NCBI GenBank assembly: GCA_903851195.1
Contig: CAINNJ010000023.1
Location: forward strand, 124,001 to 188,000
Length of the DNA stretch: 64,000 nucleotides
Direction: 5' to 3'
Origin: an uncultured Acidobacteriia bacterium
Lineage (GTDB): Bacteria; Acidobacteriota; Terriglobia; Bryobacterales; Bryobacteraceae
Part shown: positions 41,529-52,818 of the stretch, piece by piece
Position numbering within the stretch: position 1 is the first letter of the stretch
How the letters are laid out: each line of letters begins with the position of its first letter
Translations under genes and position numbers: made by a program
Notes under the pieces: generated by a model
Told to the model about the DNA's origin: nothing
Seen by the model: the letters and a program-made list of their open reading frames with translations, nothing else
The model's database searches: none

Positions 41529-43346
41529 GTGGCGAACTGGCTCATGACTCCCGCGTATATCGGCCCTGGCGCGGGGTTCGCATTTTTCGGCTCCTTTCTG
41601 ACGCTGGTGTTGGCGGTGCTGGCCGGCCTGGCATCGCTGCTGATCTGGCCGTTGCGGGTTCTGCGGGGCCTGTTCCGGCGGCGGCGCGGGCAGGTGAAAA
41701 GGGCGATCTTTCTGGGGTTCGACGGGCTGGATCCGGGCGTGACGGAACGGCTAATCGCGGCCGGCAAGCTGCCCCACTTCGCGCGGCTGCAAGCGATGGG
41801 CGGCTATCGAAGGCTGCGGACGACATTCCCTGCGCTTTCGCCGGTGGCATGGTCCACGTTCGCGACCGGGGTGAATCCGGCGAAGCACAATATTTTCGAT
41901 TTTCTGAACCGCGATCTGCGCACGTATGCGCCGGAACTTTCCTCGGCGAAAGTGACGCGCTCGGCGGTGGAGATGCGGCGCAAAAGCGAACCGTTCTGGA
42001 AAATTCTGGGCCGGCACAACGTGAGCAGCACGATTCTGCGCGTGCCCATTACGTTCCCGCCGGAGGAGTTCAACGGGCGCCTGCTTTCGGCCATGTGCAC
42101 GCCGGATCTGCGGGGCACGCAGGGGAGTTTTTCGCAGTTCTTCGCGCCCGCCGGGGATCTGGAGGGGCCGGAAGGCGAGGCGATTCCGTTTCGCGTGCAG
42201 GACGGGCAACTACGGATTCAGGGGCAGACACTCCGGTTGACGAAGGGCGAATACACGCCGTGGATCCGGCTGCGATACGGCTCGGCGCGGGGCATTGTGC
42301 GGTTCCTGTTGACCGGCGAAGCGCCATCGTTTCGGTTGTACGCGACGCCGGTACAGATTGACCCGGAGAGCCCGGCGCTGCCGATCAGCCATCCGCGGTA
42401 TTACGCGATGTATCTGGCGAAACTGCTGGGGTCGTTCTCCACGCTGGGAATGGCCGAAGACACGTGGGCGCTCAATGAGGGCGCGATCGATCAGGCGGCA
42501 TTTCTGGCGCAGGCGCGGGAGATTCAGCGGGAGCGCGAAGCGATGTTCTTCAGCGCGCTGGACCATACGCGACGCGGCGTAGTGGCGTGCGTGTTCGATA
42601 CGACGGACCGGGTGCAGCATATGTGCTTCGGGCAGGCCGATGTGATCGAGACATTGTACGTGGAGATGGACCGGATTCTGGGGCAGACGCTGCCGTATGT
42701 GGATGCGGGGACGGCGCTGTTCGTGCTGTCCGATCACGGGTTTTGTTCCTTCCGGCGCGGCGTGAATCTGAATGCCTGGCTGCGCCGTGAGGGCTATCTG
42801 ACACTGCTGGATAATGCTGCGGAATCGGGTGAGTATTTCGAGGGCGTGGACTGGTCGCGAACGCGAGCTTATACGTTCGGGTTGAGTGGCGTTTATCTGA
42901 ATCTGCAGGGTCGTGAGGCGCAGGGCGTGGTGGCTCCGGAAGACGCGGCGGCGCTGCGCCGGGAGTTGGTGGCGAGGCTGTCGGGCCTGGTGGATGAACA
43001 GACAGGCGAGATGGCCGTGCAGGCCGTGTATCCGGCCGCGGAGATCTATCACGGGCCTTATCTGGGCGCCGCGCCGGACCTGATTATCGGGTACGCGGAG
43101 GGGTATCGGGCGTCCTGGGGCGCGGCGGTCGGGAAAACGTCGGCGCTCGTGTTTGAGGACAACACGAAAGCGTGGTGCGGGGACCACTGTGTGGATCCGC
43201 ATCTGGTGCCAGGGGTGTTGTTTTCGAATCTGCCGCTGGACGCCGCGGATCCGGGAATCGAGGATCTGGCGCCCACGGCGCTGCAGTTGTTCGGGGTTCC
43301 GGTCCCCGGGTGGATGGAAGGGCGTTCGGTGATTCCGGTTGCGTAA
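41529..43346 (+). CDS. Alkaline phosphatase-superfamily phosphodiesterase, membrane-anchored (paralog 1)
   Basis: A 605-residue protein of the type I phosphodiesterase/nucleotide pyrophosphatase family. An N-terminal membrane helix (FAFFGSFLTLVLAVLAGLAS) is followed by a basic stretch and the catalytic domain: metal Asp in FLGFDGLDPGV (D65), nucleophile region SPVAWSTFATG (Thr near 110), metal Asp/His in FVLSDHGFCSFRRGVNLNAW, and the late HCVDPHLVPGVLF. The first metal site and nucleophile are intact, so hydrolysis of a phosphodiester or pyrophosphate is likely. The start may be GTG 41529 or ATG 41544. The following gene is a paralog with the same order of motifs, overlapping by 8 bp. Confidence 0.82.
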   Translation: MANWLMTPAYIGPGAGFAFFGSFLTLVLAVLAGLASLLIWPLRVLRGLFRRRRGQVKRAIFLGFDGLDPGVTERLIAAGKLPHFARLQAMGGYRRLRTTFPALSPVAWSTFATGVNPAKHNIFDFLNRDLRTYAPELSSAKVTRSAVEMRRKSEPFWKILGRHNVSSTILRVPITFPPEEFNGRLLSAMCTPDLRGTQGSFSQFFAPAGDLEGPEGEAIPFRVQDGQLRIQGQTLRLTKGEYTPWIRLRYGSARGIVRFLLTGEAPSFRLYATPVQIDPESPALPISHPRYYAMYLAKLLGSFSTLGMAEDTWALNEGAIDQAAFLAQAREIQREREAMFFSALDHTRRGVVACVFDTTDRVQHMCFGQADVIETLYVEMDRILGQTLPYVDAGTALFVLSDHGFCSFRRGVNLNAWLRREGYLTLLDNAAESGEYFEGVDWSRTRAYTFGLSGVYLNLQGREAQGVVAPEDAAALRRELVARLSGLVDEQTGEMAVQAVYPAAEIYHGPYLGAAPDLIIGYAEGYRASWGAAVGKTSALVFEDNTKAWCGDHCVDPHLVPGVLFSNLPLDAADPGIEDLAPTALQLFGVPVPGWMEGRSVIPVA

Positions 43347-45060
43347 GTTTTGGCCGCTGCTCGGGGCCTTGTCGATGATGACGGGTTGCGGCGGCGGGGC
43401 GCACCGGAAGGTGATCGTGATCGGGGTGGACGGGATGGATCCGGGCTTCGTGGAGCGGCACTGGAATGCGTTGCCGAATCTGGCGCGCCTCCGGGACGAC
43501 GGGAGCTTTCAAAGGCTGCGGACCACCACCCCTCCGCAGAGTCCGGTCGCCTGGTCGACCTTCATTACGGGGCTCGATCCGGGTGAGCACGGGATCTTCG
43601 ATTTCGTGCATCGGGATCCGGTCACGAAGGATCTGTTCCTTTCAACGGATCGCACCATGGCGCCGCGGTGGGTGCTTTCGCTGGGGGAGTACCAACTGCC
43701 GCTCTCGGGTCCGCGCGTGGAATCGCTGCGCAAAGGGAAAGCTTTCTGGCAGACGCTGGCCGAGCGCGGGGTGCCGGTGACCATTGTGCGGATGCCGGCG
43801 AACTATCCGCCGCTGCCTTATGGGAACGAACTGTCGGGGATGGGAACGCCGGATCTGCGGGGCACCCAAGGCACCTTCAGTTTCTACACGGACGCGGCGG
43901 GGGAAGAGTCGAGAGCGGTCTCGGGCGGGTTGATTCGCCGGGTGCAGATTGTGCGGAATCATGTCGCGCTGCGGGTCGAGGGTCCGCCGAATACGCTGCG
44001 GAAGGATCGGGCCTTTGCTGCGGTAACGCTCGATGTGGATGTGGATCCGGAGCGTGCGGTCGCGCGGTTCGCGGTGGGCGAGGAGATGGCGGTGCTGCGG
44101 CAGGGCGAGTGGTCGGACTGGCTGGCCGCGGACTTTCCATTAGTTCCGCATGTGGCCTCGGTCCGGGGCATGTTCCGGGTTTATGCGAAACAGCTGAAGC
44201 CGGGCTTCGAGGTGTACGTTTCACCCGTGAATATCGATCCGGAAAAGCCCGCGCTGCCCATCTCGCAGCCGCCTTCGTATGCGGGCGAGGCCGGGCGATT
44301 TTATACGCAGGGCATTGGCGAGGACACCGCCGCGCTCCGTCAGGGCGTATTCGATCTGCCGGAGTTTCTCGCGCAGAGCCGGCTGGTACTGAAGGACGAA
44401 CAGATGCTGCTGGACCATGCCTTGCGCCGGTACCGCGACGGGTTTCTGTTCTTCTACTTTTCCTCGGTGGATCAGAATTCCCATGTGCTTTGGGGCCGGC
44501 ACGACGACGAGTTGCTGACGTTTTATCAGGCGGTGGATCGGGCGATCGGCGAGGTGCGAAGGCGCGAGCCGGAGGCGGCGCTGCTGGTGATGTCCGACCA
44601 TGGATTTTCCACCTTCAATCGCGCGGTGAATCTGAATGCCTGGTTCGTCGCGCAGGGTTTGATTACGGGGGATCGGCGCAAAGCCTGGGCGGCGGGACTG
44701 AACGCGGTCTATCTGGATGGCGCGGACCGGGAAGACGTCCGGCAGCGGCTGCTGGCGTTGCGGGATCCGGAAAACGGTCGCGTGGTGGTGGAGCGGGTGA
44801 GTGACGTGCAGGCGACGGCGGAGAATCGTGCACTGGCTCCGGATCTGGTGGTCGGCTATGCGCCGGGATATCGGGCGTCCTGGGCGACCGGCTTGGGGGA
44901 GTCCGCCGACACGGTGTTCGAAACCAATACCGATGCCTGGATTGCGGATCACTGCATCAACGCCGACGACGTGTCAGGCGTGTTGTTCCTGAGCCGCGGA
45001 CTGCGGGCGCCCGAGCCTTCGCTGAAGAGTTTATCGGGTGTGATTCTGAGGTTGTTCTGA
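43339..45060 (+). CDS. Alkaline phosphatase-superfamily phosphodiesterase, lipoprotein (paralog 2)
   Basis: A 573-residue paralog of the preceding protein with the same landmarks: VIGVDGMDPGFVERHWNALP, SPVAWSTFITGLDPGEHGIF, LLVMSDHGFSTFNRAVNLNA and HCINADDVSGVLFLSRGL. Instead of a TM helix it has a lipoprotein signal: starting at TTG 43339 the sequence LRKFWPLLGALSMMTGCGGG ends in a lipobox with Cys, so it is probably anchored to a membrane by lipid. That signal supports the TTG start, which overlaps the previous gene; ATG codons near 43375 would destroy the signal. It is followed with 1-bp overlap by a small RHH-like gene. Confidence 0.82.
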   Translation: MRKFWPLLGALSMMTGCGGGAHRKVIVIGVDGMDPGFVERHWNALPNLARLRDDGSFQRLRTTTPPQSPVAWSTFITGLDPGEHGIFDFVHRDPVTKDLFLSTDRTMAPRWVLSLGEYQLPLSGPRVESLRKGKAFWQTLAERGVPVTIVRMPANYPPLPYGNELSGMGTPDLRGTQGTFSFYTDAAGEESRAVSGGLIRRVQIVRNHVALRVEGPPNTLRKDRAFAAVTLDVDVDPERAVARFAVGEEMAVLRQGEWSDWLAADFPLVPHVASVRGMFRVYAKQLKPGFEVYVSPVNIDPEKPALPISQPPSYAGEAGRFYTQGIGEDTAALRQGVFDLPEFLAQSRLVLKDEQMLLDHALRRYRDGFLFFYFSSVDQNSHVLWGRHDDELLTFYQAVDRAIGEVRRREPEAALLVMSDHGFSTFNRAVNLNAWFVAQGLITGDRRKAWAAGLNAVYLDGADREDVRQRLLALRDPENGRVVVERVSDVQATAENRALAPDLVVGYAPGYRASWATGLGESADTVFETNTDAWIADHCINADDVSGVLFLSRGLRAPEPSLKSLSGVILRLF

Positions 45061-45254: not shown

Positions 45255-45850
45255 GGTTCCTGCTGCTGGCGCTGGCGGGCGCGGTGTACGGGTTCCTGGG
45301 CGGCGCACTGTTCCGGCGCGTGCACCTTCGCGGCGAGATCAACCGGATTCTCGCTCACGTGCTGAGCTTCCGGTTGTTCATCGATGAGCCGGTACTGGTA
45401 TTCCGGGCGCAGGTGGAATTGCTCCGGGAGAATCTGCGGGTGCTGCGGAAAGTGGCGCTGCCAGGCGTTGTCATGGCAATCGTTTTCGTGCTTTCGTTCG
45501 GGACGCTGGACCGGTATTTCGGGCGTGGCGAGTTGCCGGCGGGGCGGCCGATGGTGATCACCGCTCCGGACGAAATCGCGCTGCCGGCGGAGATAGTCGC
45601 GGAGAGTCCCGCCGTCCGGATTCCCCGGTTACACGAGGTGTCCTGGCGGGTCCATGTGGCGCCGGGTTTCTCCGGTGGGCTTCCCGCGGGATTGCAGGCT
45701 CGGTATCCGCGAGCACGGATTTTCGGGGCGGAGTGGTGGCTTTGGTTTTTCGCGTTCAGTGGCGCGGGCGCGACGGCACTATACTCAGTCAGGTATGAGC
45801 GCTCCGCTGTGTTTTGTCCTGATGCCGTTCGGCGTGAAGAAAGGCGGTGA
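45251..45850 (+). CDS. Conserved membrane protein, function unknown
   Basis: A 199-residue protein with an N-terminal membrane helix (FLLLALAGAVYGFLGGALF), a juxtamembrane helical segment RILAHVLSFRLFIDEPVLVF, a second TM (VALPGVVMAIVFVLSFGTL), a beta-rich extracytoplasmic part (GRPMVITAPDEIALPAEIVA) and a third TM (WWLWFFAFSGAGATALYSV). The cytoplasmic helix/TM layout vaguely recalls EMC3/YidC-like proteins, but I cannot assign a family. The GTG at 45251 overlaps the RHH gene. Its last 56 bp overlap the start of the TIR-like/TPR gene. It closes the two-phosphodiesterase operon and could be their membrane partner. Confidence 0.65.
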   Translation: MRFLLLALAGAVYGFLGGALFRRVHLRGEINRILAHVLSFRLFIDEPVLVFRAQVELLRENLRVLRKVALPGVVMAIVFVLSFGTLDRYFGRGELPAGRPMVITAPDEIALPAEIVAESPAVRIPRLHEVSWRVHVAPGFSGGLPAGLQARYPRARIFGAEWWLWFFAFSGAGATALYSVRYERSAVFCPDAVRREERR

Positions 45851-47129
45851 CGGCACAATCGTCGATTTCGACCGCGTATACGCCGACCTGATTGCGCCGG
45901 CGGTGGCCGATGCGAATCTGGCGCCGTTGCGCGCCGACCAGGAAACCAACAGCGGCATCATCCATAAGCCCATGTTCGAGCGGCTGATCCTCTGCCCGTT
46001 CGCCGTGGCGGATCTCACGCAGGCCAATGCGAACGTCTACTACGAACTCGGCGTGCGGCACGCGTTCCGCCCGGCGAGCACGATCCAGATCATGTCCGAA
46101 GGCACGCGGCTGCCGTTCGACATCCAGATGTTGCGCACCATCCCTTATAAGCTTCTGCCCGATGGCACACCGGATCCGGCGAGGTTGGCAGCGGCTCGCG
46201 AGGGGATCGCGAAATTCCTGAGCGAAGCCCGTAAGGGCGCGAAGGACAGCCCGATCTTCCAGTTGCTGGACGGCGTGCGCGAACCCGTGCTGGAGCATAT
46301 GAGGACGGACGTGTTCCGCGATCAGGCGGAGTACTCAGTGCGCTGGAAGGACGCTCTGGCTGTCGCCCGGAAAGACAGCAAAGCTGCCGTTGGCGCTGTG
46401 GAGGCTCAACTGGGCGACATCGCGAACGTGGAATCCGGTGTTGTGATCGATTTATTCCTTTCTTATCGGGCAAGGTCGGCGTGGGCCGAGATGGTGGCGC
46501 TGGTAAGCAAGATGGCGCCTCCGCTGGCGCAAAGCGTCATGGTGCGGGAGCAACTTGGTCTGGCGCTGAACCGTTTGAAACGCCGTGACGAGGCGGAGCG
46601 GGTGTTAAACAGCCTCATTGAAGAGCGCGGGCCGAGCAGCGAGACGCTGGGCATTCTGGGACGGGTTTACAAAGACCGTTGGGAAGAAGAGCTCAAGGCG
46701 GGGAACGCAATCGAGGCGGAGGGCTTCCTCGAAAAGGCCATAGACACTTATCTGCAAGGCTTTGAGGCGGACTGGCGCGACGCCTACCCCGGCGTGAACG
46801 CGGTGACCCTGATGGAACTCCAGGAACCGCCGGATGAGCGCCGCGCCGGCCTGATCCCGGTGGTCCGTTACGCCGTGGATCGGAAGATCGCGCGCGGGAA
46901 GGCCGATTACTGGGATCACGCCACGCTGCTGGAACTGGCGGTCCTGGCGATGGACCAGAAAGAGTCGTCGCGTCATCTGTCGCGCGCGCTCGCCTGTATC
47001 CGGGAGAAGTGGGAACCCGAGACAACCGTCCGGAACCTGCGGCTGATTCGGGAAGCGCGCGAGAGGCGAGGTTCCGCGCCGGCGTGGAGTCAGCTGATTG
47101 AGGACACGCTCGCGAAGAAGGCCCTGTAG
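45795..47129 (+). CDS. TIR-like/deoxyribohydrolase domain plus TPR protein (ASK-type MAP3K N-terminus-like)
   Basis: A 444-residue soluble protein. Residues 1-125 form a nucleoside 2-deoxyribosyltransferase/TIR-like domain: CFVLMPFG at the N-terminus, D26 in IVDFDRVYADLIAPAV, FAVADLTQANANVYYELGVR with the likely catalytic E84, and IMSEGTRLPFDIQMLRTIPY. Residues about 130-440 are helical TPR-like repeats (MVREQLGLALNRLKRRDEAE, SETLGILGRVYKDRWEEEL) with the wording of the TRAFs-binding region of animal MAP3Ks, including EADWRDAYPGVNAVTLMEL. The same two-part layout occurs in ASK1-type kinases and in bacterial conflict-system proteins. The ATG at 45795 follows AGG and lies inside the upstream gene. 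A role in NAD+- or nucleotide-based defence or signalling is inferred. Confidence 0.72.
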   Translation: MSAPLCFVLMPFGVKKGGDGTIVDFDRVYADLIAPAVADANLAPLRADQETNSGIIHKPMFERLILCPFAVADLTQANANVYYELGVRHAFRPASTIQIMSEGTRLPFDIQMLRTIPYKLLPDGTPDPARLAAAREGIAKFLSEARKGAKDSPIFQLLDGVREPVLEHMRTDVFRDQAEYSVRWKDALAVARKDSKAAVGAVEAQLGDIANVESGVVIDLFLSYRARSAWAEMVALVSKMAPPLAQSVMVREQLGLALNRLKRRDEAERVLNSLIEERGPSSETLGILGRVYKDRWEEELKAGNAIEAEGFLEKAIDTYLQGFEADWRDAYPGVNAVTLMELQEPPDERRAGLIPVVRYAVDRKIARGKADYWDHATLLELAVLAMDQKESSRHLSRALACIREKWEPETTVRNLRLIREARERRGSAPAWSQLIEDTLAKKAL

Positions 47130-47321: not shown

Positions 47322-48668
47322 TCAGAGAAGAGCCAACTGCTCCTCGTCGGGCTCGGCTCAACAATACCAGGGTTCATTGAGATAAGGGACCGTGGCGCGC
47401 GCGGCGAGGTGGAAGTCCGGGGGAGTGCCGAACGCCCGGTTCCAGATCCGGCCGAAGGTGGCGGCGCGCGAGGCGCCTGCTTTGTCGCCTTCGCGGACGA
47501 TCTTCTGCAGGTCCGCGCAAAGCAGATCCATCGCGGGGTCGGGGTGTTTCCAGCGGTACTGCAGGGCGGCGGCGTCGAATTCCACGGGGCCGAGATCGTC
47601 GAGTTCCAGCATTTTCGAACCCGCCGGGATCAGCAGACGGATGGCGAACTGGATGGGCGCAACGTTTTCGATCAGGTCCAGATCGCGAATCGCCGTGAGG
47701 AAGTCCAGATACGCTTCGCGGGTTGTCCACGGCGTGAAGGTCACGAAGGTCGGCAGCATGGTGAGGCCGTGCCGGCGCGTGCTTTCGAGTGCCCGCACGA
47801 ATCCGACCCGCGTGTGGCCCTTGGCGAGGCGGGCAAGAACGGCGTCGTCGAGCGATTCCACGGCGCTGATCAGAAAGAGGCAGCCGGTGCGCGCGAGCAC
47901 CTGCAGGGCTGCTTCCTGCTGCAGCAGGTGTTCGACTTTGACGGTGACATCGTAAGTCAGGGAGGGGAATTCTTCATGCAGGGCCTCGACCAGCGGGAGG
48001 GCATGGCCGGGCCCGTTGAGGAAATCGGGATCCCCGAACGTGATGTGTTCCGCGCCCGCGGCGACCTGCTGGCGGATGTCGGCCAGCACGACTTCGCGGG
48101 GCACGATTCGAAACCGTCCTTCGTAAACGGGAACGATCGGGCAATGGCGGCAGAGGTGTTTGCAACCCCGGCTGGCTTCGGTATAGCCGGCCACTTTGCG
48201 CTGGCCGTTGTGCAGAAGACTCGCGTACCGGTGCAGCGGTGGCAAGCCGGTGCGATCCGGCGTCCGGAACGGCAGACGGTCGAGGATAACCGGAAGCGAG
48301 GAAGTCGCCCGTCCGCCGATGAGATCGGCCAGAGCCCGTTCGAATTCCCCGCCGACGATGTGGTGCACGCCGAGGCTGCGAAGCAGTCCCTCATTGACGG
48401 GGGCGTAAAGGCCGTAGCAGCAAACGCGCGCGGCCGGATTCAGGCGGCGGACCCGCTCGATCAGCGGCAGCGCCATCCGGGTCGCGGTGTGCATGGGCAG
48501 GTGGAACGCGATCCAGTCGGCGGCCGCGATCGCCTCGGGGGGCAACTCGTCGCGCGAAAGATCGAGCGCGACGACGTCGTGGCCTTCGGCGCGAAGCCAG
48601 GCGGCAGGCGAGGCGAGGCCGAAGGGCTGGTGCCCGAGATCGTAGGTGGAGAGCAGGAGAACTCGCAA
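47322..48668 (-). CDS. CUAEP-tail radical SAM selenoprotein (in-frame UGA = Sec)
   Basis: A 448-residue radical SAM protein if UGA at 47358-47360 is read as selenocysteine. An N-terminal B12-binding-like domain (RVLLLSTYDLGHQPFGLASP) precedes the cluster motif C169-x3-C173-x2-C176 (ASRGCKHLCRHCPIVPVYEG) and a TIM-barrel core (EHITFGDPDFLNGPGHALPL, CLFLISAVESLDDAVLARLA). Conventional reading ends at NEPWYC after 436 residues; continuing through UGA gives C-U-A-E-P-DEEQLALL and a UGA stop at 47322. A C-terminal C-[UC]-A-E-P tail is, as I recall, the hallmark of a named radical SAM (seleno)protein family found in Acidobacteria and others. A hairpin follows the UGA. The reaction is unknown. Confidence 0.82.
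47330..47359 (-). promoter_or_regulatory. Candidate bacterial SECIS hairpin at the Sec UGA
   Basis: On the mRNA, GAGCC beginning at the G of the UGA pairs with GGCUC 20 bases later, within coding sequence directly after the Sec codon, as bacterial SECIS elements require. The apical loop is GC-rich and its exact fold is uncertain. Confidence 0.45.
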
Positions 48669-49629: not shown

Positions 49630-52600
49630 ATGCGGCTTGCCGGTTCGGTTGCAGTTCGCTTTCTGGTTTTCGCTTTTGCCCTGACACTACTGCAGGCCGG
49701 CTTCAATCCGGAAACCGGCACTTTCGCATTTCAGCATTATTCCCCCAGGGATTACGGGGCCTCGCCGCAGAACTGGTCGCTGGCCCAGGATCCCCGGGGA
49801 GTGATGTACTTTGGCAATACCGACGGGCTCCTGGAGTTCGACGGCATCAACTGGCGAACTTTGCGGCTCCCGAACCGCTCGATCGTTCGTTCGGTCAGCG
49901 TGGGCAGCGCGGGTGGTGACGGGAAGTGGACTGTTTACGTGGGCGGCCAGCGGGACTTTGGCTATCTGCAGCCGGATTCCGCGGGCGTCATGCAGTTCGT
50001 TTCCCTGCTGGGCAGGGTGGCGGAATCGGATAAGCAGTTCGCCGACGTCTGGAAAATCCTGCCCACGCCGCAAGGCGTTTATTTCAGCACGTACAGCCGC
50101 CTCTTCCGTCTGGAGAAGGACGGTACCGTCCGAGCTTGGCCTGCCGAAAAGAAGTTCGGGCGTGCCTTTTATGTGTTCGACACGGTTTACGTCCAGACCG
50201 CGGGCAAGGGACTGCTTCGTGTCTCCGGAGACGAACTGGTCCCCGTTCCGGGAGGGCAACGTTTCTCCTCGGAGGTGATCAACGCCGCGGTCGAGTTTGA
50301 CGGCGGGGCGTTGATCGGATCCACCACTCATCTTTATCGGTTGTCGCGCGAAGGTGTGGAGCCTTTCTCGTCCGCGGCGGATGCGGAACTCGCGAAGGGC
50401 AGCATCTATTCCATGCAGGTGCTCCCCGGCGGTGAGATCGCCGTTGGCACGCGTACTGCCGGCCTTTTCCTGCTGGACCGCACGGGGGAAATCCAGCGTG
50501 TCATTTCCAAAGCTTCCGACGGCCTGAGTGATGACTGGGTCAGCGCCATCTACGCGGATCGGCAGGGTGGCGTTTGGCTGGCGCAATTGTCCGGCCTGAC
50601 ACGATTCAATCCCGGTTTATCGCGGTTCAGTGCAAAGAGCAATCTGGACACGGACGTAGAGTGTATCTCCCGTTTTGCCGGTTCGGTCTACGCGGGTACT
50701 TCCGCGGGCCTCTTCAGGATGACGACTTCGCCCCGTACCGGCCCAAAGTTCGAGCAGGTGGAGGGTTTCACCAACGCGGTCTGGGCTCTTACGCCACACG
50801 GCAATATGCTGATGGCGGCCACCGACGCGGGCATCTTTGGGATTTCCGGGCTGAAGTCGAACAGGATTTTCGAAAGCACCCGAACCGTTTGGGATCTGGT
50901 CTCTTCCAGGCTGGACGAGAGTGTGATTTATGCAGCGCGCCGGACCTCGGTCGTCAAACTGCGCGCGCTGGGCTCCGGATGGGAGACAGCCGTCGACTTC
51001 GAGCAACCCGGCGAAGAATTCCGCAGTGTTCTGGAAGATAAGGACGGAGCGGTCTGGGCGGCATCGAAAGGGAAGATCTGGCGGCTGCGCTTTCGGGCTT
51101 CGACGGTGGATGCCGAGCAGTGGGATGCGGCGCGGGGAGTTCCCGCGGGCTGGATCAATATCCATCGCCTGGATGGACACGTCGTCTTCGCGACCACCAA
51201 AGGTCTGAAGCAGTTCGACGCCAAAACCAATCAGTTCGTCCGGGACGACACCCTGGGGAGCCGGTATGCCGATGGCAGCCGCGACGTGTTCAATCTCTAC
51301 GACGACCCCTCCGGAAATCTTTGGGTCACCGGCGAAGGCTATCACGATCTGCTGATTTATCATGGCGGCAGCTATAAGAGACTTCCCGCTCCCCTGCTGC
51401 GCTCCGGCATTCAGGAAATCTACGGCATGTCCATCGATGAGGACGGCACTGCCTGGGCGGTCGGCTCCGATTACATTCTGCACCGCTGGGACCGCCGTCT
51501 GGCCGGTGACCCGGACCGCGATTTCAACGTGCTGACCCGTCGCGTCCAGGTGATCGGCTCGAAAAGCAGCCTCTACGGCGGGAACGGGTCGCTGGACGAA
51601 CTCCGCCTTCCCTGGCGTGACAACAAGCTGACCTTCGAGTTCGCCGCTCCGTTTTACGAAGAGCCCAAGGCGGTGGAGTACCAGGTCAAGGTCGACGGGA
51701 CCGACACGGACTGGTCGGCCTGGAGCCACGACACCAAGAAAGACTACAACTACTTCCCGGAAGGCTCTTACCAGTTGCGCGTCCGGGCCCGCAGCCCGCA
51801 CGGGACTATCACGGAGAAGGCGGCTATGGCCTTCCATGTCCTGCCGCCCTGGTACCGCACCTGGTGGGCTTACTCCTTCTACCTGGTGCTCGGCGGGCTG
51901 TTCGTTTGGGGCGTCGTGGGGCTGCGTACCCGTCAGCTTCAGGAAGAAAAGAAACAACTCGAAATCATCGTGGAAGAGCGGACCGTGGAAATCCGCCACC
52001 AGCGCGACGAAATCCAGGTGCAGGAGCGCAAGAGCCACTCCCTGCTGCTCAACATTTTGCCGGGCAGCGTGGCCGATGAACTGAAGTCCACGGGCGCCGT
52101 GCAGCCGGTCGGATTCGACGATGTCACGGTGTGTTTCACCGATTTTGTCGGCTTCACGCTGTCCAGCGAAACGCTGGCGCCGGCGGCACTGGTCGATGCC
52201 CTGAACGAATACTTCACGGCTTTCGATGAGATTATTTCCCGCTACGGACTGGAAAAGCTCAAAACCATCGGCGATTCGTACATGTTCGCGAGTGGTCTGC
52301 CGACGCGGCGCAACTCGCACGCGGTAGACGCCGTTCTCGCCGCGCTCGAGATGGTGGATGTCGTGAAGCGTCTCGCGGCCAGGCCCGGCGGCATGGCGTG
52401 GAACATCCGGATCGGCCTGCACAGTGGTCCGGTCGTCGCCGGCGTGGTGGGAATCCGGAAATTCGCGTTCGATATCTGGGGCAATACCGTAAATTTCGCG
52501 GCGCGCATGGAATCGAGCGGCGTGCCCGGTTCGGTCAACATGTCCGAGCGCACCTGCCAGCTACAGCACGAACTGATCGACTGCGAGTTCCGGGGCAAGG

Positions 52601-52818
52601 TGCGAATCAAGGAAGGGCGCGAACTGCCCATGTTCCTGGCGAGAGGCCCGGCCCACGAACTGATGGACGGACCCGTAATCAACGGCGTTCCGGAGGCGTT
52701 TGCCCGCAAGTACCGCGAGACGTTCGGGGAAGAGCCCAAGTCGTTCCCGCTGCGCGTGCAGTCTCCGGAACTGGCCGAAACCGCTGCGGTCGGGGGGCGA
52801 ACCGGCGGTACGGATTAG
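49630..52818 (+). CDS. Propeller-sensor transmembrane adenylate cyclase (class III)
   Basis: A 1062-residue receptor cyclase. A signal peptide (VAVRFLVFAFALTLLQAG) leads into a large periplasmic beta-propeller of the two-component-regulator-propeller type (NWSLAQDPRGVMYFGNTDGL, VSAIYADRQGGVWLAQLSGL), a Y_Y_Y domain near residues 640-735 (LRLPWRDNKLTFEFAAPFYE, YQLRVRARSPHGTI), one TM near 741-765, a coiled coil (LQEEKKQLEIIVEERTVEI), and a C-terminal class III cyclase. The cyclase has metal Asp in VCFTDFVGFT and TIGDSYM, adenine-selecting Lys in EKLKTIGD and Asp in FAFDIWGNTVNFAARM, so cAMP is the likely product. The propeller normally sits on histidine kinases, so coupling it to a cyclase is notable. 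It ends overlapping uvrC by 4 bp. Confidence 0.88.
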   Translation: MRLAGSVAVRFLVFAFALTLLQAGFNPETGTFAFQHYSPRDYGASPQNWSLAQDPRGVMYFGNTDGLLEFDGINWRTLRLPNRSIVRSVSVGSAGGDGKWTVYVGGQRDFGYLQPDSAGVMQFVSLLGRVAESDKQFADVWKILPTPQGVYFSTYSRLFRLEKDGTVRAWPAEKKFGRAFYVFDTVYVQTAGKGLLRVSGDELVPVPGGQRFSSEVINAAVEFDGGALIGSTTHLYRLSREGVEPFSSAADAELAKGSIYSMQVLPGGEIAVGTRTAGLFLLDRTGEIQRVISKASDGLSDDWVSAIYADRQGGVWLAQLSGLTRFNPGLSRFSAKSNLDTDVECISRFAGSVYAGTSAGLFRMTTSPRTGPKFEQVEGFTNAVWALTPHGNMLMAATDAGIFGISGLKSNRIFESTRTVWDLVSSRLDESVIYAARRTSVVKLRALGSGWETAVDFEQPGEEFRSVLEDKDGAVWAASKGKIWRLRFRASTVDAEQWDAARGVPAGWINIHRLDGHVVFATTKGLKQFDAKTNQFVRDDTLGSRYADGSRDVFNLYDDPSGNLWVTGEGYHDLLIYHGGSYKRLPAPLLRSGIQEIYGMSIDEDGTAWAVGSDYILHRWDRRLAGDPDRDFNVLTRRVQVIGSKSSLYGGNGSLDELRLPWRDNKLTFEFAAPFYEEPKAVEYQVKVDGTDTDWSAWSHDTKKDYNYFPEGSYQLRVRARSPHGTITEKAAMAFHVLPPWYRTWWAYSFYLVLGGLFVWGVVGLRTRQLQEEKKQLEIIVEERTVEIRHQRDEIQVQERKSHSLLLNILPGSVADELKSTGAVQPVGFDDVTVCFTDFVGFTLSSETLAPAALVDALNEYFTAFDEIISRYGLEKLKTIGDSYMFASGLPTRRNSHAVDAVLAALEMVDVVKRLAARPGGMAWNIRIGLHSGPVVAGVVGIRKFAFDIWGNTVNFAARMESSGVPGSVNMSERTCQLQHELIDCEFRGKVRIKEGRELPMFLARGPAHELMDGPVINGVPEAFARKYRETFGEEPKSFPLRVQSPELAETAAVGGRTGGTD

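Follow-up and report, generated by a model that had tools for sequence, protein, structure and literature searches.

A radical SAM protein of the CUAEP family with a probable Cys-Sec tail, and an ATP-grasp ligase that accompanies it across genomes

The gene, its tail and its surroundings

The window analyzed here, a 64,000-nucleotide stretch of DNA, carries on its minus strand an rSAM_CUAEP selenoprotein gene (47322..48668) of 448 residues, which runs from a TTG start to a UGA stop at 47324-47322. The TTG at 48668 is the first start codon downstream of the preceding in-frame stop, and AAGG was spotted by eye a few bases upstream of it. At its C-terminal end the frame reads N-E-P-W-Y-C, a first UGA (47360-47358), and then A-E-P-D-E-E-Q-L-A-L-L before the terminal UGA. 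The original prediction, made from the sequence alone, had described this end as C-U-A-E-P followed by eight more residues and a UGA stop, and our re-reading of the sequence agrees with it in both content and coordinates.

The protein matches the NCBIfam model NF040546 (CUAEP/CCAEP-tail radical SAM (seleno)protein) at 611.1 bits against a cut-off of 500, and the family name given in the original prediction was therefore correct. The score is 611 bits when the first UGA is read through and 591 when it is not, and within its own genome the window gene is the sole strong match (604 bits, with the next at 45). All features that define membership are present, namely the score, the C-(U/C)-A-E-P tail and the CxxxCxxC motif, and the likeness to NF040546 extends over the whole length of the protein, including the alternation of Sec and Cys. 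Since NF040546 exists as a Sec/Cys family model, the family and its selenocysteine form had already been curated before this work; its description gives no function, and the genome partners of CUAEP are described in the present analysis. Neither CUAEP nor NF040546 was found in the literature searched, in which the main text of the 2026 review PMC13188914 does not contain NF040546, although an earlier description is possible in the Haft papers cited by that review.

An N-terminal B12-binding-like domain spans residues 5-116 (48321..48656, minus strand) and scores just above its Pfam cut-off (PF02310, 32.9 bits against 32.1). The radical SAM motif CxxxCxxC (Cys169, Cys173 and Cys176; 48141..48164, minus strand; Pfam Radical_SAM, 39.9 bits) is intact, as originally stated, and invariant in both alignments. 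Two further cysteines deserve mention. Cys436 (47361..47363, minus strand) adjoins residue 437, encoded by the first UGA, and is itself Sec in two Anaerolineae, while Cys263 (47880..47882, minus strand) is invariant among 55 aligned CUAEP sequences (54 of 80 loci kept from a genome scan, plus the window protein) and is replaced by V or L in three ArsL/RCCLKC sequences. When Sec is counted as Cys, positions 436-440 are invariant in the same 55 sequences. The AlphaFold model of the window protein has a mean pLDDT of 92.8 and is weaker in the tail, where blocks 421-430 and 431-440 average 71 and 73 and residues 443-448 fall below 50.

Around this gene, the window contains two adjoining genes of the type I phosphodiesterase/nucleotide pyrophosphatase family (41529-45060, plus strand), a TPR-S / MAP3K TRAFs-binding domain protein gene that is convergent with the selenoprotein gene (45654-47129, plus strand), and a gene in which an adenylate/guanylate cyclase domain is joined to a two-component-type propeller sensor (49630-52818, plus strand). 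A small Cys-rich ORF directly after the selenoprotein gene (approximately 47270-47133, minus strand) was considered as a peptide partner and dropped because a tblastn search of loci L001-L187, including the 80%-identical L055, gave no convincing relative outside its own genome.

Decoding of the in-frame UGA

The tail was compared among 126 sequences, comprising the window protein and 125 relatives, and the pattern [CU][CU]A[ED]P was found in every one of them, which exceeds what chance would give. The relatives were all 80 loci retained after a genome scan in which 557 relatives were confirmed, 30 of the best matches in the phylum to which the Anaerolineae genome G201 belongs (taken to be Chloroflexota), and 15 further records, of which 14 were hand-picked for spread and one was Thermomicrobium roseum. 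Three tails were too short and were left out (L069, L115 and L179), leaving 123, of which 118 were distinct, the repeats being mostly genes that had been fetched twice. With the window included, the distinct tails divide into 82 CU, 2 UU and 34 CC forms, such that position 437 (47358..47360, minus strand) is UGA in 84 and Cys in 34, which is the alternation that the original prediction had anticipated. The two Sec-Sec-A-E-P tails, each with two consecutive in-frame UGA codons, come from two Anaerolineae genomes (L096:10001-11392 and L116:10001-11407). On a FastTree tree of the 118 members, computed without the tail, at least 18 changes between Sec and Cys are required, with 38 of 118 inner branches poorly supported.

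The pattern is that by which bacterial selenoproteins are recognized: the UGA aligns with Cys of homologues, and conserved coding sequence continues beyond it. A complete set of decoding genes, which it had been proposed to look for, is also at hand in the window genome. The tRNA-Sec lies on the same contig as the window gene (69 bits, cut-off 47), selB, selA and selD all score over their cut-offs (347, 491 and 356 bits, respectively), and selD itself has an in-frame UGA, according to both the search report and a reading of its sequence. The in-frame stop codon is most likely read as the selenium amino acid, and the true Cys-Sec tail of the window enzyme is therefore most likely lost in ordinary gene calling. 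Such truncation, expected from the outset, is also found in the public record of T. roseum DSM 5159, where the CUAEP gene is annotated to stop at Cys and the actual sequence continues as TGA-GCG-GAG-CCG (U-A-E-P).

A hairpin that resembles a bacterial SECIS element (bSECIS) follows the UGA at 47327..47345 (minus strand), with a 7-bp stem (47345-47339 paired with 47333-47327) and the loop AGUUG (47338-47334). The hairpin had been thought to begin at the UGA, which is not the case, as the stem starts 12 nt and the loop 19 nt past it. The bSECIS constraints quoted in passages of PMC13188914 are a loop of 3-9 nt, a stem of 4-16 bp, a G in the first two loop positions, a distance of 16-37 nt from the UGA and an energy of at most -7.5 kcal/mol. 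With a loop of 5 nt, 7 bp, 19 nt and -10.8 kcal/mol (the energy of the 42 nt after the UGA), the window hairpin lies within every one of the constraints quoted there.

Because a plain fold of the 63 nt around the UGA gives a z of only -2.0 (8 of 200 shuffles fold as well) and no Rfam family matches the window at gathering scores, the case for the hairpin is a comparative one and does not depend on a single sequence. Among relatives, the hairpin loops are mostly AGUUN or AGGUN, and a loop G is present in 84/84 Sec forms vs 14/34 Cys forms. Stems of at least 5 bp occur in 72/82 CU forms, in contrast to 7/34 CC forms. Relative to synonymous-codon shuffles (spanning 60 nt, bases past the stop included), CU forms have a mean stem of 5.84 rather than 3.61 bp and an energy under the shuffle mean in 73/82, whereas in CC forms the means are 3.65 and 3.39 bp and the energy is under the shuffle mean in 15/34. 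The stem also covaries: across 69 Sec forms in the main register, pair 20-28 is GC in 53, CG in 11, UA in 3 and GU in 2, and pair 19-29 is AU in 58, GC in 5, CG in 4 and GU in 2, the register having been assigned per sequence by the best stem, which favors the paired percentages. In most Sec forms, then, a covarying hairpin of bacterial SECIS type has been retained, and in most Cys forms it is missing. The last residues of Sec forms seem to exist in order to code the hairpin, since Cys forms can stop earlier (3 to 5 residues past AEP in 4 of 34) and none of the 84 Sec forms ends fewer than seven residues past it.

The distribution of the machinery in other genomes bears on the decoding to differing degrees. 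SelA is so common in the phylum of G201 (244 of 301 genomes) that it does not discriminate Sec from Cys forms there. In the Acidobacteriota order of the window genome, SelB (taken as present at a best E below 1e-70, which holds for 164 genomes, with 165 over the cut-off by the tool's count) accompanies 66 of 76 UGA forms and 9 of 14 Cys forms, four of the 94 genomes that had either a match to CUAEP or a fragment of it having been excluded for a missing or broken tail. This link is only suggestive (Fisher p 0.05, uncorrected for relatedness), and 10 of the 76 UGA-form genomes have no full-strength SelB match. Within one genus of the order (code g2, 20 genomes), full-strength SelB occurs in six genomes, all with UGA-form CUAEP, and is absent from five Cys-form genomes, eight without CUAEP and one UGA-form genome that is 82% complete. 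As the only six genomes with full-strength SelB all carry the UGA form, CUAEP is possibly a main reason for keeping selenocysteine in this genus. Considered together, the machinery, the conserved [CU][CU]A[ED]P tail and the covarying hairpin uphold the selenoprotein status that was originally proposed. As judged from sequence, the product of the window gene is almost certainly a radical SAM enzyme of the CUAEP family with Cys-Sec-Ala-Glu-Pro near its end, in which UGA would be read as Sec by means of a SECIS hairpin placed within the last codons.

An ATP-grasp ligase and other genes that accompany CUAEP

Downstream of the CUAEP gene and in the same orientation, 34 of 81 loci have an ATP-grasp gene whose start is no more than 600 bases away; among the 67 fetched loci that extend at least 1 kb downstream, the number is 33. 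The copy scanned (from L107) has ATP-grasp and LAL_C2 domains, the latter at 42.9 bits against a cut-off of 29.4, and its best solved relative is the L-amino acid ligase BL00235 (E 1.4e-34). BL00235 (PDB 3vot) and BacD are, like the partner, ATP-grasp enzymes with a LAL C-terminal domain; the partner differs from them in belonging to an orthologue group that tracks CUAEP. In the window genome the ligase gene (G000:C32:17089-18348) was identified by similarity (422 bits with the next best at 33; 55% identity), and the two genes are not adjacent.

Across 200 genomes of the order, 92 have both genes, one has CUAEP only (G126), three have the ligase only (G001, G169 and G174) and 104 have neither. 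These counts take CUAEP as present in 93 genomes (89 over the family cut-off and 4 partial) and the ligase, at more than 200 bits, in 95, with 97 genomes positive at E 1e-40. In one of the ligase-only genomes, G001, the contig with the ligase also bears a C-terminal fragment of CUAEP. In the phylum of G201 (301 genomes), 73 have both, 2 CUAEP only, 23 the ligase only and 203 neither. The Fisher p values for joint presence are below 1e-45 and ignore relatedness, and for this reason the concordance within genera is the better argument for a partnership: the window's genus has both genes in 6 of 15 genomes and neither in 9, and the one other genus examined likewise has both in 12 of 20 and neither in 8. 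A close ligase orthologue is absent from the Nonomuraea genome and from a Pyrinomonadaceae genome (L078). From this distribution among genomes, it is highly probable that CUAEP and the ligase act together, a conclusion that, like the decoding, rests on comparisons. Such near-perfect joint presence makes of the family a two-gene pathway that can be tested and whose genes have known coordinates in the window genome.

Other genes recur near CUAEP as well. In 41 of 102 loci, spread over Acidobacteriota, the phylum of G201 and a Tectomicrobia genome, a homologue of YggX (Iron_traffic; one copy was checked against Pfam) stands no more than 5 kb from CUAEP. A YggX homologue also lies near the ligase in five of the eight fetched regions in which the ligase is away from CUAEP, including that of the window genome, where the YggX homologue (L147:13679-13924, on G000:C32) is about 4 kb from the ligase. 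In a set of 27 loci, made up of 20 regions from the phylum of G201 and 7 other records, 14 have a gene of the formyl transferase family (one copy Pfam-checked) no more than 4 kb away from CUAEP, and a DUF169 homologue lies equally close in 7 of 102 loci. The associations with the ligase and with YggX, and the Sec-Sec forms, were found in this study and are new within the searches made, none of which was aimed at them.

The Nonomuraea candida locus carries, behind a Cys-form CUAEP (L125:11448-17385), genes for a methyltransferase, an aminotransferase, a WelO5-like protein, two MerB-like proteins, DUF169 and LysE. The WelO5-like protein scores below the Pfam cut-off, and the best NCBIfam match of the methyltransferase is 2-ketoarginine methyltransferase at 126 bits, with a cut-off of 425. 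The aminotransferase, methyltransferase and LysE exporter of this cluster, together with the ligase, may point to an alpha-amino acid product. A search for more such clusters in Actinomycetes returned only Nonomuraea itself (1/394). MerB-like proteins were rejected as a family trait because they matched only in the Nonomuraea cluster, in 1 of 102 loci.

Kinship to ArsL and the possible chemistry

The second-best family of the window protein is ArsL (NF040542, arsinothricin biosynthesis radical SAM protein), at 257 bits with a cut-off of 450, and the third family scores only 41. ArsL is described in passages of PMC8552651 as a noncanonical ACP-transferring radical SAM enzyme. Three ArsL/RCCLKC sequences aligned with the window protein are 31-35% identical to it and share with it the segment W-x-H-x-D-x3-D-x-L and vicinal C-terminal cysteines. 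They differ in having the tail RCCLKC in place of C-(U/C)-A-E-P (YCUAEP in the window protein) and no Cys at position 263. Relatives were present in 17 plasmid records, 16 of them being ArsL or RCCLKC-tail proteins, and the three that were opened sit among arsenic genes, unlike CUAEP. Two of these three clusters, from Alicyclobacillus and Priestia and annotated as RCCLKC-tail, also contain an ATP-grasp gene (L189:436-1668 and L190:1483-2706), whereas none is present in the 9 kb seen of the arsL-annotated cluster of Pseudomonas amygdali (L191). The Alicyclobacillus ATP-grasp protein is 25% identical to the CUAEP partner and belongs to the same ATP-grasp family, with LAL_C2 just under the cut-off. 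When one RCCLKC protein was searched by sequence against solved structures, none was found.

Score, tail and neighbors all speak against CUAEP being ArsL itself: the score is below the cut-off, the RCCLKC tail is lacking and no ars operon was seen alongside. With one query each, ArsR, ArsI, ArsN and ArsQ were found in 0/102 CUAEP loci, whose flanks reached about 10 kb at most and were often shorter; weak ArsM-like matches occur in 3/102 loci and ArsB-like matches in 3/102. As no such operon was seen, arsenic was rejected as the element, and the chemistry of ArsL is kept only as an analogy. Since CUAEP is not ArsL and yet has it as nearest kin, we propose an ArsL-like action on another atom or acceptor. 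Most likely the radical enzyme would, like ArsL, combine SAM with a small substrate, perhaps a soft heteroatom, into an unusual amino acid, the substrate being handled by the Cys-Sec tail, and the ATP-grasp ligase would then couple this amino acid to another, such that the two genes would form a short biosynthetic pathway. Cys263, Cys436 and Cys/Sec437 could form a three-ligand site for a soft element.

What the enzyme makes, by which chemistry, and what its tail contributes are inferred, with differing confidence. That the product of CUAEP is an amino acid is, by analogy, somewhat to be favored, while transfer of a 3-amino-3-carboxypropyl group in the manner of ArsL is a tentative suggestion that may well prove wrong. 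The whole best explanation, in which a Sec enzyme, a ligase pathway and ArsL-like amino acid synthesis are combined, stands at slightly less than an even chance.

Other explanations need to be weighed against it, and several draw on the fold. The top Foldseek match to the model is the radical SAM diol dehydratase AprD4 (PDB 6fd2; E 2e-17, TM about 0.71), although identity is only 17-18% and the window protein scores 37 bits against the AprD4 family. One of them makes CUAEP a methylase, a cobalamin-dependent radical SAM enzyme with a small molecule as its target, in which the Cys-Sec tail would serve redox chemistry or the handling of cobalt. Dependence on cobalamin had been suggested in the original prediction and is the weak part of it. 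The B12-binding match just above its cut-off and the presence of MgmA, TsrM, OxsB, CysS and TokK among the Foldseek matches are consistent with such an enzyme; however, AprD4, the nearest fold, is not known to need cobalamin, and the nearest family is ArsL, described as ACP-transferring (passages of PMC8552651), leaving a methylase somewhat improbable. Slightly less probable still is another small-molecule reaction, for instance a dehydration or rearrangement of the AprD4 kind, with electrons supplied or relayed by the vicinal thiol-selenol pair, as happens in other enzymes with a C-terminal Cys-Sec. Both the AprD4 match and the existence of CC, CU and UU forms, as a redox pair would predict, agree with this, but kinship to ArsL in sequence (257 bits) is far above that to the AprD4 family. 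Two other radical SAM selenoproteins, TIGR04167 and TrsS (NF045646), named in passages of PMC13188914, share with CUAEP the possession of Sec and represent different families, neither being among the 20 families matched by the window protein.

The tail itself could be the substrate, with the ATP-grasp enzyme modifying or extending C-U-A-E-P. The extreme conservation of positions 436-440 would suit such a role, but the ligase resembles ligases of free amino acids and is often encoded away from CUAEP, and we regard this as very improbable. Least credible of all is a UGA that is a true stop, with a protein ending at Cys436. Automatic annotation does end there, as in T. roseum; against it stand the conservation of AEP past the UGA, the Cys homologues that run through the site, the covarying hairpin and the Sec machinery.

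The proposal of an ArsL-like enzyme with a ligase partner can be carried one step further, to a natural-product pathway that has not been described, in which the selenoenzyme would form a carbon-heteroatom bond in an amino acid, its Cys-Sec or Sec-Sec tail would hold the element and a dipeptide would be released. We consider this extended version unlikely as it stands. Versions of one tail with Cys-Cys, Cys-Sec and Sec-Sec exist in nature and can be compared. If the pathway is real, arsinothricin biosynthesis would have in it a selenium-dependent cousin that works without arsenic and is common both in Chloroflexota and in one Acidobacteriota order.
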